Shown here piece after piece: positions 9,584 through 42,338 of a stretch of DNA of 64,000 bases; position 1 is the first letter of the stretch, and every line of letters starts with the position of its first letter. The translations under genes and the position numbers were made by a program. The DNA is from Phycisphaerae bacterium. Its GTDB lineage: Bacteria > Planctomycetota > Phycisphaerae > Sedimentisphaerales > Anaerohalosphaeraceae. The stretch is taken from the NCBI GenBank assembly GCA_018052735.1, contig JAGPMT010000011.1:1-64000 (forward strand). Direction: 5' to 3'. The notes beneath the pieces were generated by a model. That model saw only the letters and a program-made list of their open reading frames with translations, searched no databases and was not told the origin of the DNA.

Positions 9584-11302
9584 TCAGGGCCTGCCGGCCC
9601 GGTACATCTCGGCGATTTCCTCGCCGCTGAAAACACGTTTGGCAATAATGATTTCGTCGATTTTCCCATTGAACCGGGAGTTATCGCCGGGTGCATAGTC
9701 CGCACCAATCAGCAGAGGTGCCTCCCGAAACTCCTGTTGATGCGGCCACCGCTGCGAATCAACCAGCTGTCCGTTCAGGTAGAACTTCAGGGTTTCATTA
9801 TCATGGGTCGCTGCAACCAGTATCCAGCCGAACAGTTCGGGCAGCTGTCTGCTGGCTATTTGGTTGCTGTCATCATTCGAATCCAGTTTTCTGGCAAGAT
9901 GGATATTACGGCGCCAGTCTATCTCTACAGGACTGTGGTAGCCCAATTGGTAATTGCAGAAAGAACGCGGCGGGAGGCGGTTGGACACAATATGCCCGCC
10001 GTCCTTTGCATCGGCGCAGTAAATCCACGCGGCAAGAGTAATCGGCCCGTTGATGCAGAGCCGGGCATCGGCGGCAATTTCCGCATACTGGCGCCGGGAA
10101 CGGTCAAACGCCAGAGCGGTTTTTTGCGGCCACCGTCCCTGCGTCCAGGCGGGCGGGGCTTCGCCGCTGGCACTGCAGAGCTGCCCGTTGAGACTTCCGA
10201 AGGTTTCCGCCGCCACATTGACCAGCAGGTCGGGATTGGCAGGATCTTTCTCAAAGGTATAATACGCCGCCAGCGACGGATCTTTGCGAAGCTGAAGACT
10301 GTACGCCAGCCATCGATGGTAAGCCGAACCTTGGATTGCCCTGAGCCGCACTTCAAACTCGTCCGAGCGAATGAAGTGGTCCTGAGAACGAGTCTGGGAG
10401 GAAATGTCTCCGCTGCTGCTGACCTGTCCTCCCTGCCCTTCTTTGACTGTCAGATTTTTTTCATATCTCAGGAGATCAGAGCTGTTGCGGATTTCCACCT
10501 CGCCTTGAAAGACATAAGCATGGGTATTGCGCCCGTCAAAGCTGACCCCGAATTCCGTCCCAAAATCGACAACAGCGGCGTTAATCGTCCGGACGACAAA
10601 GTGCCTGTCGTTCTGCTTGTTCACATCCACCACCAAGCGGCCGGCCTTGAGAAAAATCTGGTTCATGGACTCCAGTTCAAATTCACTGGGCGCCTGGACA
10701 ATGATTTTGGTTCCGTTATCGAGAATAATCTCCGCCAGTCCGCAGATCAGTTTCATCGGGCCGGTGTAAAGGTCGCATCCTTCCTGAATCATTCCGCTGG
10801 CATCTGCCCACTGGGCATCTGCAACACGGGCAAGCCGGCCAACCAGCTGGGAATGAGAGACCGGAACGAATTTGATATACGCCAGAAACAGCAGCATGAC
10901 CGTCAACGACAGAACGGCAACAAACAGCGATGCCTTATTGACTGTTCGGGCAACCCGCTCTGTCCGGCCGTGCAGCACAGCAGGATGGATTTCCTGCTTG
11001 GGATGAAAAATCTCTACGGCCGGTGCGGTGGTTTCGGCGGCAGCCAATTCCATCAGTGCATCATTGTACACGCTCAAATCCGAATCGTGCGGAATGTGAC
11101 CGGCAAAGCCGGCCTCCGGAGATGTTAAAAACCTGTGCAGCCCGGAATGGAGGTAGGCATATTCCAAATAGCGCTGCCTTGCCTGCGGGTCGCGTTTCAG
11201 CTGAGTGTCAAGGTCGGCGATTCCCTCTTTCGTGATGACAGAATCGTGCATTTCTTCGATTAACCGGGGCAGGCGGAGATTGTCTTGGATATCGGGATGC
11301 AT
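9584..11302 (-). CDS. FecR-like anti-sigma protein with C-terminal LamG domain
   Basis: 572 residues. The cytoplasmic N-terminus (about 1-120) resembles the planctomycete anti-sigma region (short helices, DSVITKEGIADLD). One transmembrane segment follows at about 128-152 (ASLFVAVLSLTVMLLFLAYI), then a FecR domain at about 170-300 (DNGTKIIVQAPSEFELES, VVDFGTEFGVSFDG, YVFQGEVEI), and a LamG/concanavalin-like domain at about 375-570 (ITLAAWIYCADAKDGG, KFYLNGQLVDS, KIDEIIIAKRVFSGEE). The start ATG overlaps the sigma-factor stop as TAATG, so the pair is translationally coupled. By family knowledge it should hold the sigma factor at the membrane and sense an extracellular or periplasmic cue, perhaps through LamG. 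Confidence 0.88.
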   Translation of the reverse strand: MHPDIQDNLRLPRLIEEMHDSVITKEGIADLDTQLKRDPQARQRYLEYAYLHSGLHRFLTSPEAGFAGHIPHDSDLSVYNDALMELAAAETTAPAVEIFHPKQEIHPAVLHGRTERVARTVNKASLFVAVLSLTVMLLFLAYIKFVPVSHSQLVGRLARVADAQWADASGMIQEGCDLYTGPMKLICGLAEIILDNGTKIIVQAPSEFELESMNQIFLKAGRLVVDVNKQNDRHFVVRTINAAVVDFGTEFGVSFDGRNTHAYVFQGEVEIRNSSDLLRYEKNLTVKEGQGGQVSSSGDISSQTRSQDHFIRSDEFEVRLRAIQGSAYHRWLAYSLQLRKDPSLAAYYTFEKDPANPDLLVNVAAETFGSLNGQLCSASGEAPPAWTQGRWPQKTALAFDRSRRQYAEIAADARLCINGPITLAAWIYCADAKDGGHIVSNRLPPRSFCNYQLGYHSPVEIDWRRNIHLARKLDSNDDSNQIASRQLPELFGWILVAATHDNETLKFYLNGQLVDSQRWPHQQEFREAPLLIGADYAPGDNSRFNGKIDEIIIAKRVFSGEEIAEMYRAGRP

Positions 11303-11823
11303 TAAAAATCTCCGGTTCGCAGCTGCTTCTGCACACAGTTAACCAGAAGCATTTTAATTCTCGACATATTCTGATAAACCATGTGGATTGTCGTTCCAAT
11401 CCGCAGGGCTATCATTTTTGCAGAACAGCTATGGGTATAACGCAATTTTAATAATTCCAGATCTTTGCGGGGCAGTTTCCCCAAGCAGTCTTTTAAGGCC
11501 TGAAACCTCCGTTCCAGCTCCGGCATCATCTTTTCGCTCTGAGCGGCCAGAAGGTCCAGCGTCTCCTGACTCAGGAAGCAATCTTTCTTTTTTTTGCGGT
11601 ATTCGAGAATGCGATACTTGGCAATCGATATACCCCATGCGACAAAATCCGTTCCGGCGGAAAAATCATCAAATTTTTTCCACATTATCGTCGAAGTATC
11701 CTGCATGATGTCATCCGCATCGGCTTCATTAATCACAACACTCTGAATATATGCATAAATCCGGTAATGATTAGAAGACAATAAATGGATAAAATATTCT
11801 GTTTTCGTTCTATCTGAATCCAT
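11302..11823 (-). CDS. ECF RNA polymerase sigma factor, planctomycete type
   Basis: 173 residues, short as usual for ECF sigma factors. Region 2 is at about 10-80 (YRIYAYIQSVV, DADDIMQDT, FVAWGISIAKYRILEYRKKKK) and region 4 at about 115-165 (LKDCLGKLPRKDLELLKLRY, then a helix-turn-helix ending in MVYQNMSRIKMLL). It is the first gene of a minus-strand set sigma, FecR-LamG, pseudopilin and probably the two large exported proteins; the sigma factor presumably drives itself and some of these. AGGAGG lies about 30 bases upstream of the ATG, too far for a normal ribosome site, but I found no in-frame start nearer to it. Confidence 0.88.
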   Translation of the reverse strand: MDSDRTKTEYFIHLLSSNHYRIYAYIQSVVINEADADDIMQDTSTIMWKKFDDFSAGTDFVAWGISIAKYRILEYRKKKKDCFLSQETLDLLAAQSEKMMPELERRFQALKDCLGKLPRKDLELLKLRYTHSCSAKMIALRIGTTIHMVYQNMSRIKMLLVNCVQKQLRTGDF

Positions 11824-12367
11824 TGCCGTTGATATCCAAAGAGTCCTATTCCTCCTAAAAGCTTAAGCTTATATCGTTTATTTTCTCCTATATGGTAATG
11901 GCCATTCAGATGCTTTTCTGAATATAAAAATTAGAATTAAATTTGTGCCGCTTCCCGAACACCCGGCCTTTTGCTTCTGTCTGATGCCAAAATCGCATTT
12001 TGCACCTCCAGCAGCCAACACCGCTTGCCAAATAAGGTGTCCAGTATAAAACGCCTCAAATATGCATTTTAGAAAAAAGCGACTCCAGAATAGGATAATT
12101 AGGTTGCAGAAATTGTGTATCTAACTGACATTTCCCATTTAAACAGTTAAAAAACATAATTCCTCCTAACGACATCTACAATTTTACAAAATTCGCTACC
12201 GCAGGGTCAAGAAATCCATTCCATGCCCCAGTATTATCCAAAATCCCGTAAATATACGGTTTTCCATGCACTTGAACACTTACAGACATACTTTTTGACA
12301 GACCTTGACTGCTTTGACGTTCGTAAAATCAGGTTTTTAAGCATTCTTCGGCATCATTTATCCGGTC
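11824..12367. other. Long intergenic stretch upstream of the ECF sigma gene
   Basis: About 540 bases, AT-rich near the sigma gene, where its promoter must lie (minus strand). One short minus-strand frame with a perfect ribosome site is listed separately (12056-12157). A 58-codon plus frame at 12223-12399 runs into the insertion-sequence end and is not convincing. Confidence 0.4.
12056..12157 (-). CDS. Possible 33-residue small protein
   Basis: ATG at 12157-12155 preceded by AGGAGGAATT, an ideal Shine-Dalgarno at ideal distance. The translation begins MFFNCLNGKCQ and ends SKMHI with TGA at 12058-12056. It has two Cys and no membrane segment, and I recognise no family. It could be the 5' remnant of a gene cut when the neighbouring mobile DNA arrived, or a chance frame; the ribosome site is the only support. 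Confidence 0.3.
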   Translation of the reverse strand: MFFNCLNGKCQLDTQFLQPNYPILESLFSKMHI

Positions 12368-13350
12368 TGTCAACCTCCCCTTTTCTTGAACAGTTATAAT
12401 TGGAGAGTTTCACACACATAGCAGTTTTTTCCCTTTCGGCCCTTCGCCGGGGCATTGAGGGTCAAATGGGAAAAACTGCGGGCATATTCAACCGGGCTTT
12501 CCCCGCCCAGTGCACCGTGCCCGCGATCATAATTGTATTCCACCAGCCAGTCGCCCGCCAAATCCCTGACCTGCTGCAAATTCCTGAACGCATACATATC
12601 CAAAATATCCTCGCGAAAGCTGCGGTTAAAACGCTCGATAAAACTGTTCTGCTGCGGCTGGCCCGGCTCGATCCGCCGATGGCGAATCCGGTGCGAACAG
12701 CAAAACCGCCGGAAGGCCCGGCTGGTAAACTCCGGCCCGTTGTCACTGCGAATGTATCGCGGGAAACCGCGTTCAGCTCCAATGATCTCAAGGCTGCGAA
12801 TAATCCGGGCCGACGGCAGGCTCGTATCGATCTCAACCGTCAATCCCTCACGGTTAAAATCGTCGATCACATTAAATGTCCTGAAGGTTCTTCCGCGGCT
12901 TAGTGTGTCGCTCATAAAATCCATGCTCCATACTTCATTGAGGTAGCTTGCCTTTGGCATCGATTTAGGTTCTGCAGGCTCTAAACGCTTTTTCCTGCGG
13001 TTTGGCACTTGGAACCCGTTTTGTGTATACACCCGGTACACCTTCTTGTGATTGCCCACGACAACCCCTTTCTGCAAATCGCATCAAAGACCTTGCCGAA
13101 CCCGCGACGCGGACGTTCTTCAATCACCTTTTCAATCTCCTGTTTGACGTAGGCATCATCATTGGACACAGGCTGATAGTAAAAGCTGCCCCGGCTGATA
13201 CTCGCCGCTTTACAAGCAGCCTTAACGCTTAATCCCTGATCATTTGCCTGCCTGGCAAACTCTCTTTTACCGGCAGGCGTCAGAAGTTTTTTTCAATCAG
13301 GTCCTTCAGAATGGTGTTTTCCAGAGACGGGTGTTGCAGGGTAAACGCCG
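12368..13350 (-). mobile_element. Truncated IS3-family insertion sequence
   Basis: Contains a frameshifted OrfB and the last residues of OrfA on the minus strand. The likely intact end is TGTCAACCTCCCC at 12368, just past the OrfB stop, matching the TGT...GGGGAGG style of IS3-family ends. No matching inverted end is visible beyond 13350, and OrfA is cut to about 15 recognisable residues (LENTILKDLIEKNF, stop at 13280-13282), so this end is deleted. A slippery heptamer A AAA AAC (13286-13292, minus strand) sits where OrfA joins OrfB, the normal -1 frameshift site of the family. Confidence 0.75.
12394..13290 (-). pseudogene. IS3-family transposase OrfB (DDE integrase), frameshifted
   Basis: In IS3 elements OrfB is read after a -1 slip from OrfA. 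Here the slip product reads EKKLLTPAGKREFARQ and continues to VFDAICRKG, then the frame is lost near the G run at 13065-13068 (minus strand GGGG; five Gs would restore it). The remaining 227 residues hold the whole catalytic core: WSMDFMSD (first Asp), IRSDNGPEFTS (second Asp) and NSFIERFNRSFRED (Glu), ending YVCETLQL. One missing base is therefore the main lesion in OrfB, but with OrfA mostly deleted the element should be unable to move. Confidence 0.85.
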
Positions 13351-38284: not shown

Positions 38285-38349
38285 ATCTACCGCGAAAGCG
38301 GACGAGGGTGATGCGCGGGGCTGGTACAGAATACCAGCCCAGTTTTTTT
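38285..38349 (+). ncRNA. Structured leader of thiE: GNRA hairpin followed by intrinsic terminator
   Basis: A tight hairpin CCGC-GAAA-GCGG (38290-38301) is followed by GACGAGGGTGATGCGC and then a 9-bp stem GGGCTGGTA/TACCAGCCC (38318-38340) with a T7 tract (38343-38349). It stands 46 bases ahead of the thiE start codon. The arrangement fits an attenuator or riboswitch-type leader, or a separate small RNA with its own terminator. The standard TPP-riboswitch core (CTGAGA and ACCTGAT elements) is absent. Confidence 0.5.
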
Positions 38350-38394
38350 AACTGCACTGTATTTTTCTGCATAAATTCCTTACAATTGAAGGGT

Positions 38395-39453
38395 ATGAAC
38401 TCTATTCTTTATCGAATCATAGATGCGAATTATAACCGTGCCCGAGAAGCTTTAAGGGTCATGGAAGAATACTGCCGCTTTGGATTGAACCATTCCGGAC
38501 TAAGCGGACGGGCTAAACAGCTTCGGCATACCCTATGCGCAACATTAAGCAAATTGGATACATTTGCCCTGTTATGCAGCAGGGATACCGCCGGAGATGT
38601 GGGAAGAGAACGGAAAGTTGAAGGCCAAATAAACCGCCAAACAATTGAAGACTGTTTTACCGCCGCGTCTAAACGGGCCAGCGAAGCACTTCGGGCACTG
38701 GCCGAAACGGCACAAACTATAGATCCGGAAATCGCAGCCGTAATGGAAAGACTGCGGTTTGAGGTATATACCCTCGAGAAAGATGCTGCGATGGCATCAT
38801 ACGTGAAAACTAAATTCGAGAAAGTACGGCTGTATGTTTTAATTAACGCTGATCCGCACACATCTGACACAGATGTTATCAACCTTGCCCGCATCTGTGC
38901 CGAAAATGGGGCCGACTGTCTTCAGCTAAGAGCCAAAAACCTCACGGATGCCCGCTTACTCAGCTTGGCAGAAGCGTTTACAGCAACTTGCAGGCAGAAC
39001 GGCACTGTAAGCATTATCAATGACCGGACTGATATCGCGGTACTTGCCGGAGCAGACGGGGTCCATTTGGGGCAAAATGAAATTCCTGTTCCCAAGGCCA
39101 GACGGCTTGCCGGAGCTCCTTTAATTATCGGCGTTAGTACACACAACACAGATGAACTCCATAAGGCAATCGATAATAGATGCGACTATGTAGGGCTTGG
39201 ACCGGCCTTTGCCAGCCCGACTAAACCGCATGTACCGGCTGCTGGTCTTGGTTATATCAGGCATGCCCTGCCTTTGCTCGAGCAAGCCGGTATTTTTCAT
39301 ACAGCTATCGGCGGGATTACATTAGATAATCTAATGGAGCTTCAGCAGGCAGGAGTAAAAACCATTGCCGTCTGTCAGACAATAGCTGGGGCTGATGACC
39401 CTGCCTTTATTTGTAAGGCGTTAAAAAACAAACTCTTAAATCCTTGTTGTTAA
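38395..39453 (+). CDS. thiE: Thiamine-phosphate synthase with N-terminal ThiD2-like domain
   Basis: 352 residues from ATG 38395 (MNSILYRIID); the longer open frame begins inside the terminator hairpin. Residues 1-140 form a helical domain (RIIDANYNRAREALRVMEEY, REALRALAETA-like repeats) seen fused to ThiE in planctomycetes and related to ThiD2, proposed to supply HMP-phosphate kinase activity. Residues about 145-345 are a ThiE barrel: CLQLRAKNLTDARLL, IINDRTDIAVLAGADGVHLG, IGVSTHNTDEL, YVGLGPAFASPTKP and AIGGITLDNL. Joins HMP-PP and THZ-P to make thiamine phosphate. Confidence 0.92.
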   Translation: MNSILYRIIDANYNRAREALRVMEEYCRFGLNHSGLSGRAKQLRHTLCATLSKLDTFALLCSRDTAGDVGRERKVEGQINRQTIEDCFTAASKRASEALRALAETAQTIDPEIAAVMERLRFEVYTLEKDAAMASYVKTKFEKVRLYVLINADPHTSDTDVINLARICAENGADCLQLRAKNLTDARLLSLAEAFTATCRQNGTVSIINDRTDIAVLAGADGVHLGQNEIPVPKARRLAGAPLIIGVSTHNTDELHKAIDNRCDYVGLGPAFASPTKPHVPAAGLGYIRHALPLLEQAGIFHTAIGGITLDNLMELQQAGVKTIAVCQTIAGADDPAFICKALKNKLLNPCC

Positions 39454-39890
39454 AAGTTATCGACAGCTTTTTCACCAACTGCTCAAATAGATATATCATA
39501 AAAATAATTGGCTTTTTCGGCATTTCAAATTTGTATTTTTATACCGACCAGTCCCCCTGTAATTCAACTGTTCTTAATGGCTATTCGTAACTTATTTAAT
39601 AGAAGAAGCTTATAAGAAAAAAAATCAATACTTGCAAAATAATCATTTCAAAAACATCAGGAGAGATAGCAATAAGCATAAATAAATCAAGGCATATTGC
39701 ATCCGGTACCAGTACAATCATCCAAATTATTAACAATTTGTCCACATCTCAGCTTTCGCGTATTTTGACGACTGCTCCACTGAATCAAACAGCAAAATTG
39801 TATTAAAAAAACGGAAGTTCAATATATTCACACTTTTATAATCCTTTATAATACCTGCTCATTGCTTGAACACATTTATGGAGCAAGACG
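39454..39890. other. AT-rich gap upstream of the MetF-methyltransferase fusion
   Basis: About 440 bases without a supported gene. Two TATAAT boxes occur near 39836-39853, so the promoter of the downstream gene is probably here; no good -35 can be assigned. No SAM, cobalamin or THF riboswitch core was recognised. Confidence 0.4.
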
Positions 39891-42338
39891 ATGACAGAAT
39901 CAAAACGACTAAAGGAAGTACTTGACAGCGGACAGTTCGCCGTATTAGCTGAACTAACGGGAGGTCCAGGTTTTAATTTCGGCCCCATAGAAAATTTCCT
40001 CTTCGACCACCAGCAGAATAAAAAGCCCCTGCCGGAGGGCTTTTGTTTTGCCGGCATTGCACTGCCCCAAAATCCCGGCGGCGTAGCCAACATAGACCCT
40101 GCTGATGTTCTGGCTGCTGTTACAGGAAAAAACTTGCTGGGGCAGCTTGATTGTATCCCGCACGTAAGCTGCAAAGACAGCAACAGCGATGGACTAATCA
40201 GCACGCTGGCAGGATACCGTCAGCAGGGAATCCAATCAATTCTTGCCCTGACCGGAGATAAACCCGCTTCTGCCAAAAAGGTTTTTGAACTTGAAAGCAT
40301 CGGCCTGCTTTCTCTTATAAAACGTCTCAACAGACAAGCAATGCTGGCAGCCAAACCCGGCCAGTGGAACTCGGTGCATCAATTTTATGCCGGTGCTGCA
40401 GTCTCTCCCTATAAATATACGGAACCTTCATTGATGCAGCAGTATTACAAAATGGAAAAAAAGATCGCTGCAGGCGCTGAATTTCTCATTACTCAAGTCG
40501 GCTGGGACTGGAAAAAAACGCTGGAATTGACACTTTATATGAAGGACAACAGGATTAAGATCCCTGTTATCGGCAATGCATACTGGCTAACAACCCTCAC
40601 TCCAGCTCCTCGGCTGATGCACGATATCAAACTGGCCGGCTGCTTTGTAAGTGACGCATTATTGTCCAAAATCCAATCTGAGTCCATTGATGAGCATATT
40701 GAGCGTACTGCACAGCAGGTTGCAATGTTCAAGTCACTTGGCTATGCCGGCGTGGATATCGGAGGTGTGCATAATTACGATATTTTCCTGAAAATACTCA
40801 CTCGTGCCGCTGAGATAGGAACAGACTGGGAAAAGTTCAAAGACAACCTCTTCTGGCCGGCTGAAAATCCGTTTTACTTATATGATGAAGCGGGCAAGCC
40901 GGTAAAACTGTCCAAAACCAAAAAAAAACCAAATGAACGTTTCTTTGATTTTATGCACCGAGCAATACTTGACCCGCAGTATCGGGGATTTCGGTGCTTT
41001 AAGAAGACCGTCAAGTTCTTTAACGCCGACAAAGAAGATACAATCACTTATAAGTTGTTTAATGCGGTTGAAAAGGCATTTAAATATTGTGTTTTTGACT
41101 GTCAAGAATGCGGCGACTGCTATCTGCCGGAGAATTTCGGCTATTGCACTATCGGCGGATGCGAAAAAGGCCTGGACAACGCCCCTTGCGGCGATGCTAC
41201 TGTAGAAGGTTATTGCGGCAACAATCTCCGGCGGCTGTGTATCGGTGAGAAAATATATAATTCTGCTTCAGCAGAACCGGGCGGACGTGATAAATTGCGG
41301 CGCATTATTAACAAACCAAGGATACCGGCATTGGAACACACCAGTTCGCTGGTAAATTATTTGTTTGGAAAGGATCATACGATGAAAGACCCGCTAATCG
41401 GCATTGGTGAATCCATACATGCATCCATCCCGAAAACAGGTCAGATTATGAAAGAACTGCATAATTTAGGCACCGATGCCTACACACGCCCCAGCGGGCC
41501 GCTAAACTATATTCGCGCCCTCATTGAAGACCAAGCTACCGAAGGCGCTTCCTATATAGCGGTCAATCTGGATGCATTCGGGGAAAATAATCCGCAGCAG
41601 GCCGTCAGTATGATGATCGAATACACCCGGCTGGTGCGTCAATGGGGCAAAGGAGTGCCGATTTGTGTTGACAGCAGCAACGATGATGTACTGACAGCCG
41701 GCCTGAAAGAATGGTACAATACCGACCAGCCGGTACGGCCGCCGCTGCTCAATTCGATAAAAGTTTATACCGCTGATAGAATGATGCCGCTTAAAATGAC
41801 TTATGACTTTGCCTTTATCGGATTGCTGGTCAGCGAAGAAAAACCGACCGGTCCGGGAGGGTCCCATTCGATTGACGAATTATATGCTCTGGCTCATCAA
41901 CTTTTTGATAAAGCGATGCAGTATGGTTTTAAGCCATCGGAAATCTTCTTTGATTCGACCGTATTTCCTATCGCAATTGATATGCCAATGGAGCCGGGGG
42001 TGCCGGGCTATACATATCGGGCTTTTGAGACAATTAAGAAAATAAAGAATGATCCCAAGATGAGAGGATGCCATTTTTCACTTGGAATCAGCAACTGCTG
42101 CCGGGACTTGCCGGGCCGGAAAATCGGCATCTGCCGTGCTTATGTGGCCAAAGCAATGGAATATGGATTGGACGCAGGAATTATCAATGTATCGCACCAT
42201 TACGGCCAGACGCCGCCAGATCCGGAGCTGCTGAAGCTCATTGATGCATATGCCAAACTGGATGGCACTATTGAGAAACTCAACGAAGCAATGACATTAA
42301 TGGGACAGTTTTGTGCCTCCTGCAGAAAACCGGTATAG
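39891..42338 (+). CDS. Fusion of methylenetetrahydrofolate reductase, Cys-rich MetV-like domain and pterin-binding methyltransferase
   Basis: 815 residues, cytosolic. Residues about 1-320 are a MetF-like TIM barrel (FAVLAELTGGPG, PHVSCKDSNSDGLIS, SILALTGDKPAS, GAEFLITQVGWD). Residues about 330-480 are a Cys-rich MTHFR-C/MetV-like region: CVFDCQECGDC, YCTIGGCEKG, APCGD, GYCG, probably binding zinc. Residues about 510-812 are a DHPS/MeTr-type pterin domain (PLIGIGESIHASIPKTGQ, ICVDSSNDDVL, LNSIKVYTADRM, EIFFDSTVFPIAID, HFSLGISNCC). Family knowledge: MetF reduces methylene-THF to methyl-THF and MeTr moves the methyl to a corrinoid protein, so one chain could do both steps. No corrinoid domain is present here. 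Confidence 0.85.
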   Translation: MTESKRLKEVLDSGQFAVLAELTGGPGFNFGPIENFLFDHQQNKKPLPEGFCFAGIALPQNPGGVANIDPADVLAAVTGKNLLGQLDCIPHVSCKDSNSDGLISTLAGYRQQGIQSILALTGDKPASAKKVFELESIGLLSLIKRLNRQAMLAAKPGQWNSVHQFYAGAAVSPYKYTEPSLMQQYYKMEKKIAAGAEFLITQVGWDWKKTLELTLYMKDNRIKIPVIGNAYWLTTLTPAPRLMHDIKLAGCFVSDALLSKIQSESIDEHIERTAQQVAMFKSLGYAGVDIGGVHNYDIFLKILTRAAEIGTDWEKFKDNLFWPAENPFYLYDEAGKPVKLSKTKKKPNERFFDFMHRAILDPQYRGFRCFKKTVKFFNADKEDTITYKLFNAVEKAFKYCVFDCQECGDCYLPENFGYCTIGGCEKGLDNAPCGDATVEGYCGNNLRRLCIGEKIYNSASAEPGGRDKLRRIINKPRIPALEHTSSLVNYLFGKDHTMKDPLIGIGESIHASIPKTGQIMKELHNLGTDAYTRPSGPLNYIRALIEDQATEGASYIAVNLDAFGENNPQQAVSMMIEYTRLVRQWGKGVPICVDSSNDDVLTAGLKEWYNTDQPVRPPLLNSIKVYTADRMMPLKMTYDFAFIGLLVSEEKPTGPGGSHSIDELYALAHQLFDKAMQYGFKPSEIFFDSTVFPIAIDMPMEPGVPGYTYRAFETIKKIKNDPKMRGCHFSLGISNCCRDLPGRKIGICRAYVAKAMEYGLDAGIINVSHHYGQTPPDPELLKLIDAYAKLDGTIEKLNEAMTLMGQFCASCRKPV

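Follow-up and report, generated by a model that had tools for sequence, protein, structure and literature searches.

A MetF-MetV-methyltransferase fusion as a candidate pterin module of a split methionine synthase in a Phycisphaerae bacterium

The window analysed in this study is a stretch of 64,000 nucleotides (positions 1 to 64,000 of contig JAGPMT010000011.1, assembly GCA_018052735.1, Phycisphaerae bacterium). It contains an 815-residue reading frame in which an enzyme predicted to make methyl-THF and a methyltransferase predicted to use it appear on one chain, and the question is what such a protein does in this organism. The initial annotation left two roles side by side, methionine synthesis without a canonical MetH or methyl-branch carbon metabolism. 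The former is favoured by the gene content of the own genome, and the latter finds its support in other lineages, where Fhs, FolD, and FDH genes are neighbours of the fusion. The features of the locus are as follows.

38308..39453, + strand: thiE-like gene, conserved upstream neighbour in 18 loci (locus comparison)
39880..39883, + strand: GGAG, likely Shine-Dalgarno of the fusion gene (judged from the sequence)
39891..42338, + strand: MetF-MetV-MeTr fusion gene, 815 aa (ORF call, Pfam, homologues, predicted structure)
39903..40817, + strand: MetF-like methylene-THF reductase barrel, residues 5-309 (Pfam, alignment, structure match)
41052..41375, + strand: MetV-like module, about residues 388-495, with 8 invariant Cys (Pfam, alignment; PMC8515935)
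41379..42329, + strand: pterin-binding methyl-THF:corrinoid methyltransferase barrel, residues 497-813 (Pfam, PDB sequence match, structure match)
41670..41672, + strand: D594, equivalent to D75 of Moorella AcsE, pterin contact (alignment)
41751..41753, + strand: N621, equivalent to N96 of AcsE (alignment)
41952..41954, + strand: D688, equivalent to D160 of AcsE (alignment)
42093..42095, + strand: N735, equivalent to N199 of AcsE, N5 hydrogen bond (alignment)
42117..42119, + strand: R743, equivalent to R207 of AcsE (alignment)

The product is a fusion of MetF, MetV (DUF5981), and a pterin-binding methyltransferase (MeTr). Pfam matches, all over the curated cut-offs, were MTHFR (PF02219) at residues 85-294 (E 1e-16), DUF5981/MTHFR C-terminal (PF12225), which corresponds to MetV, at residues 388-470 (E 6e-12), and Pterin_bind (PF00809) at residues 543-735 (E 2.5e-8). 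NCBIfam and PDB sequence searches gave the same three-part picture, and among solved structures in the PDB, the C-terminal part came closest to a methyl-THF:corrinoid FeS protein methyltransferase (MeTr 2yci, E 1e-11). An AlphaFold2 model based on a 49-sequence alignment (mean pLDDT 89, pTM 0.89) contained two barrels, at residues 5-309 and 499-813. In a structure search with the model, the first barrel gave Z scores of about 24 against solved MTHFRs, the best of them superposing at an rmsd of 2.9-3.2 Å, and the second gave Z 28-29 against solved structures of MeTr and of the folate domain of MetH (about 2.0-2.6 Å); the search with the whole model showed no solved-structure match to the MetV module. 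The start codon is ATG, and the likely Shine-Dalgarno GGAG lies 7 nt upstream of it. No SAM, cobalamin, or THF riboswitch was found in the window or in loci L090, L091, and L092. The ThiE-like protein encoded at 38308-39453 carries a long N-terminal extension; its gene is a very stable neighbour on the 5' side of the fusion and is not thought to be part of its function.

The key residues of the MetF, MetV, and MeTr parts are intact in the window protein. Alignment of the fused homologues showed that the reductase residues E21 and D123, which correspond to E28 and D120 of E. coli MetF, were kept in 67/67 and 68/68 sequences, respectively; the MTHFR barrel has the catalytic Glu and the flavin-site Asp that mark a MetVF-type reductase. 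The pterin-binding barrel has the equivalents of all of D75, N96, D160, N199, and R207, as a MeTr should (AcsE numbering from the 2e7f alignment); the roles of these residues in MeTr are established. The middle domain had been described as zinc-type at first. It is better described as a [4Fe4S]-binding MetV module; Cys 404, 407, 410, 419, 424, 433, 442, and 450 are invariant in 68/68 aligned fusions, and such a PF12225 module with conserved Cys is again a mark of the MetVF type. By analogy with the known enzymes, the module is expected to carry FeS clusters (PMC8515935).

One scan of genome contigs gave 78 fusion loci, and 68 full-length fused proteins, the window's included, were used; the homologues were 48-81% identical. 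An assembly or frameshift artefact was ruled out by these 68 sequences from independent assemblies. The carriers are records labelled Phycisphaerae, Sedimentisphaerales, or Planctomycetota and records labelled Kiritimatiellales, so that the check across Phycisphaerae suggested in the initial annotation found the fusion there and in a further lineage. The single-chain architecture itself, as first proposed, agrees with the family and PDB matches, the predicted structure, and the full-length homologues. The fusion is real and conserved, and it is undescribed in the literature searched, where no earlier account of a MetF-MetV-MeTr fusion was found (subscription papers were mostly outside coverage). 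The contigs of two fusion loci, L052 and L041, bear the labels Candidatus Kuenenia and Blastopirellula marina, and these assemblies are probably mislabelled or mis-binned. In the cultured Pontiella sulfatireligans F21 (L074:9998-12435), the fusion is broken into two frames that overlap (9998-11104 and 11056-12435), which is a frameshift or sequencing error; MetH is present in the same genome. Phage records gave only distant partial matches.

The own genome (G000; 2.88 Mb, 70 contigs, 96% complete) was searched by family and examined in selected stretches. Neither canonical MetH nor MetE was found in this 96% complete genome, nor was MttB, and CODH/ACS gave no PF03598 match; the absence of MetH supposed initially was thus observed and extends to MetE and CODH/ACS. 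Canonical Wood-Ljungdahl acetogenesis was ruled out for the organism, since there is no ACS match in its genome. PF00809 was found only in a folP-like gene and the fusion, and PF02219 only in the fusion and in a protein of 619 aa, encoded on contig C45, that joins a homocysteine methyltransferase to MetF. Since this only other MTHFR is fused to a homocysteine methyltransferase, the genome has no ordinary stand-alone MetF. The combination named at the outset as speaking against the proposal, an ordinary MetF and MetH with lost pterin-binding residues, is not what was observed: MetH is absent and the pterin residues are intact.

The remaining parts of a split MetH, including a corrinoid protein, were also found there. 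PF02574 occurs in the C45 protein and in a stand-alone 299-aa protein (C20). A single MtaC-like corrinoid carrier of 208 aa (C49) has the cap and binding domains (PF02607+PF02310) and the DxHxxG motif. A RACo/RamA-like activator (DUF4445) and a DUF1638 protein are encoded on C18 and C47, respectively. A genome with no MetH or MetE (at 96% completeness), in which PF02574, PF00809, and PF02607+PF02310 lie on separate proteins together with DUF4445 and DUF1638 proteins, has the composition of the Phaeobacter-type split methionine synthase. The fusion is not itself a canonical MetH, in which homocysteine, folate, and B12 domains share one chain. The parts are on separate contigs, and no operon joins them in this genome. 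Two further loci of the own genome were observed: a 741-aa ORF, an EtfB-EtfA fusion by appearance, is followed by an ETF:quinone oxidoreductase-like gene and is divergent from the corrinoid protein gene (L090:10707-14596), and a glycyl radical enzyme-like gene lies with that for its activating enzyme (L095:15774-18001).

Co-occurrence was examined in 198 genomes of the class that were at least 85% complete, 40 of them from the own order. The MeTr domain of the fusion type was found in 38/198 genomes, all in the own order, fused in 26 and alone in 12. MetH was absent from all 38 carriers, and both non-carriers of the order (G008 and G178) have canonical MetH (1698 and 1680 bits), being its sole MetH genomes; neither has RACo or DUF1638. 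This mutual exclusion gave a Fisher p of 0.0013 with relatedness ignored. Among the 38 carriers, RACo was found in 37, DUF1638 in 30 (undetected in 8), MttB in 7, and MetE in 5.

Gene neighbourhoods in relatives connect the parts that are scattered in the own genome. In L009, whose fusion is 74% identical to that of the window, genes for a corrinoid protein, Fhs, and the fusion follow one another with gaps of <100 bp. In L081, a homocysteine methyltransferase and a regulator face a cluster of corrinoid protein, Fhs, FolD, and fusion, and in L080 an unfused MeTr is directly preceded by a corrinoid protein. The own corrinoid protein (C49) shares 69-73% identity with those near the fusion or unfused MeTr in these three loci, and the own homocysteine methyltransferase shares 65% identity with that of the L081 cluster. 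A corrinoid partner, as a MeTr needs, is thus encoded in the own genome and linked to the fusion or MeTr in relatives. Furthermore, in G082, from another family, MetF-MetV (522 aa) and MeTr (288 aa) are separate adjacent genes beside Fhs and FDH; this looks like the arrangement that the fusion would have joined.

In Phaeobacter inhibens, the same five parts make methionine, as was shown by mutant fitness (PMC5764234). In Ruegeria pomeroyi, the MtgCDE modules also serve glycine betaine demethylation, and the gene for the pterin module is immediately followed by metF2 (PMC12478193); this pair is a gene-pair analogue of the fusion. Taken together, these findings suggest, with a probability of roughly two in three, that the fusion is the pterin module of a divided, B12-dependent methionine synthase and that it includes the enzyme that makes methyl-folate. 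In the own organism and its relatives, where the usual methionine synthase is missing, the fusion apparently takes over part of its task. Against this reading speak the scatter of the parts in the own genome, the second MTHFR with its homocysteine methyltransferase domain (C45), the five carriers with MetE, the eight in which DUF1638 was undetected, the lack of a riboswitch at the loci examined, and the MetH of the Kiritimatiellales carriers described below.

From the domains, residues, gene content, co-occurrence, and linkage observed, we infer the activities, partner binding, electron donor, and direction of flux as follows. Reduced ferredoxin or another low-potential donor would probably pass electrons through the MetV FeS clusters to the flavin on the MetF barrel; the donor is suggested by analogy with MetVF enzymes, the known ones of which use reduced ferredoxin (PMC8515935, PMC8760232). 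The MetF barrel would convert methylene-THF to methyl-THF; the channelling proposed in the initial annotation is possible between the two barrels but was not supported. The C-terminal barrel would transfer the methyl group to the cobalt of the separate 208-aa corrinoid protein, and the zinc-type homocysteine methyltransferase (C20) would pass it from there to homocysteine, forming methionine; the N-terminal part of the bifunctional C45 protein may also methylate homocysteine. The RamA/RACo-like ATPase (C18) and the DUF1638 protein (C47) would help cobalt re-reduction. A bolder version, in which the single, low-potential FeS-linked chain hands methyl-THF over directly, replaced the folate half of MetH throughout the order, and later spread to Kiritimatiellales for C1 metabolism, is tentative and, in our view, rather doubtful.

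The role need not be the same everywhere. In nine Kiritimatiellales carriers, the fusion is accompanied by MetH, some copies being fragments. A universal methionine role was ruled out on this ground; hence, the role there differs, or methionine synthesis is not the sole role. In the Kiritimatiellales, L037 for example has the order FolD, fusion, Fhs, corrinoid protein, RACo, and DUF1638; adjoining DUF1638 in this cluster is a gene whose product resembles URO-D family methyltransferases and carries a thioredoxin-like domain at its C-terminus (L037:18377-19750). The main role could accordingly be C1 catabolism or assimilation, in which formate-derived methylene-THF and methyl-corrinoid are interconverted in either direction, with methylated substrates, and methionine is secondary. 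The neighbours of the fusion in Kiritimatiellales and some Phycisphaerae (Fhs, FolD, corrinoid protein, RACo, DUF1638, URO-D methyltransferase, or FDH/HylB) and the MetH of the Kiritimatiellales are consistent with this, as is the work of separate MtgD and MetF2 of Ruegeria in methyl oxidation (PMC12478193). For the own organism we consider it unlikely, because its genome has a single MtaC-like corrinoid protein and neither MttB nor ACS, the exclusion of MetH in the order is complete within the sample, and few carriers have MttB (the 7 of 38 given above, MttB being the family covered by the search).

It is still less probable that the C45 protein alone makes methionine and the fusion serves another purpose. 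This protein is intact and has both PF02574 and PF02219, but neither a pterin-binding nor a B12 domain; therefore, a methyl-THF:corrinoid step is still needed, and the fusion is its sole source in the own genome. Moreover, in G059 and G065 the homocysteine methyltransferase-MetF gene, like that of C45, lies directly beside the unfused MeTr.

The two halves of the fusion have been lost separately. Most unfused MeTr genes occupy the same syntenic spot as the fused gene, with thiE near one end and smpB/trpC-like genes near the other. In L103 (G187), two stretches of the fusion, residues 3-37 followed by 468-499, can still be recognised upstream of MeTr, though in different frames, and L106 (G112) retains a fragment of MetV; hence, in these cases at least, the ancestor was fused and its reductase half has since been lost. 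About 8 changes between the fused and unfused states are needed on the tree, of which well-supported branches force only 2. ACS was found in 6/12 unfused genomes versus 0/26 fused ones (Fisher p = 0.0003, relatedness ignored). Conversely, a clade of 10 fusions (L061, L062, L063, L065-L069, L071, and L073; support 100/99) lacks the N199 and/or N96 equivalents in a full-length barrel, and its conserved MetF-MetV is still about 55-60% identical to that of the window. Two of its members, L067 and L068, lie in an operon with AcsE-, AcsD-, and Fhs-like genes (AcsE and AcsD were named by eye from the sequence, and the ACS loci L120 and L121 back these names with matches of 70-73%). In the genomes with the degenerate domain, no MetH match exceeded the cut-off, and only about half of these genomes yielded a separate pterin domain. 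These independent losses indicate that MetF-MetV and MeTr are separable functions, and we argue that their physical fusion is not essential, because some genomes keep one half only or have one half dead. That the C-terminal barrel serves as a scaffold without catalysis, in a protein that is only a MetVF-type reductase, as this well-supported clade might suggest, is most improbable, since D75, N96, D160, N199, and R207 are all kept in the window protein and its close relatives and MeTr is the surviving half, retained in the own order, where MetF-MetV was deleted.

The proposed pterin module is made of parts of known kinds, a MetVF-type reductase and a split-synthase pterin module, newly combined in one chain. 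It resembles the Phaeobacter/Ruegeria system in its separate homocysteine, pterin, and B12 modules, its RamA-like and DUF1638 proteins, and the lack of MetH in the genomes. It differs in that MetF and MetV precede the pterin module on one chain, in that the hosts are Planctomycetota and the enzymes of the anaerobe type, and in that the own genome lacks an MttB-type glycine betaine methyltransferase. The MetF barrel and the FeS MetV module are shared with the MetVF-type (type II) reductase of acetogens (PMC8515935, PMC8760232); in the known reductases, however, the two are separate subunits and metV precedes metF, whereas here one chain has the order MetF, MetV, methyltransferase. The fold and the pterin-contact residues are those of AcsE/MeTr, but the fusion is only about 29% identical to the L067 AcsE, ACS is absent from the own genome, and the partner is probably the MtaC-like corrinoid protein rather than the corrinoid FeS protein. 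The folate barrel is shared with canonical MetH, and the two-barrel chain resembles the N-terminal half of that enzyme; unlike in MetH, the first barrel is a reductase instead of a homocysteine domain, and the chain has no B12 or activation domain.

These results suggest a possible route to methionine for a planctomycete order that lacks MetH and mostly lacks MetE; searches for MetH by a full-length model would score such organisms as methionine auxotrophs. The natural fusion predicts that MetVF reductases and corrinoid methyltransferases are directly linked in function, and its intact, half-deleted, and half-dead natural versions make the role of each half directly testable.
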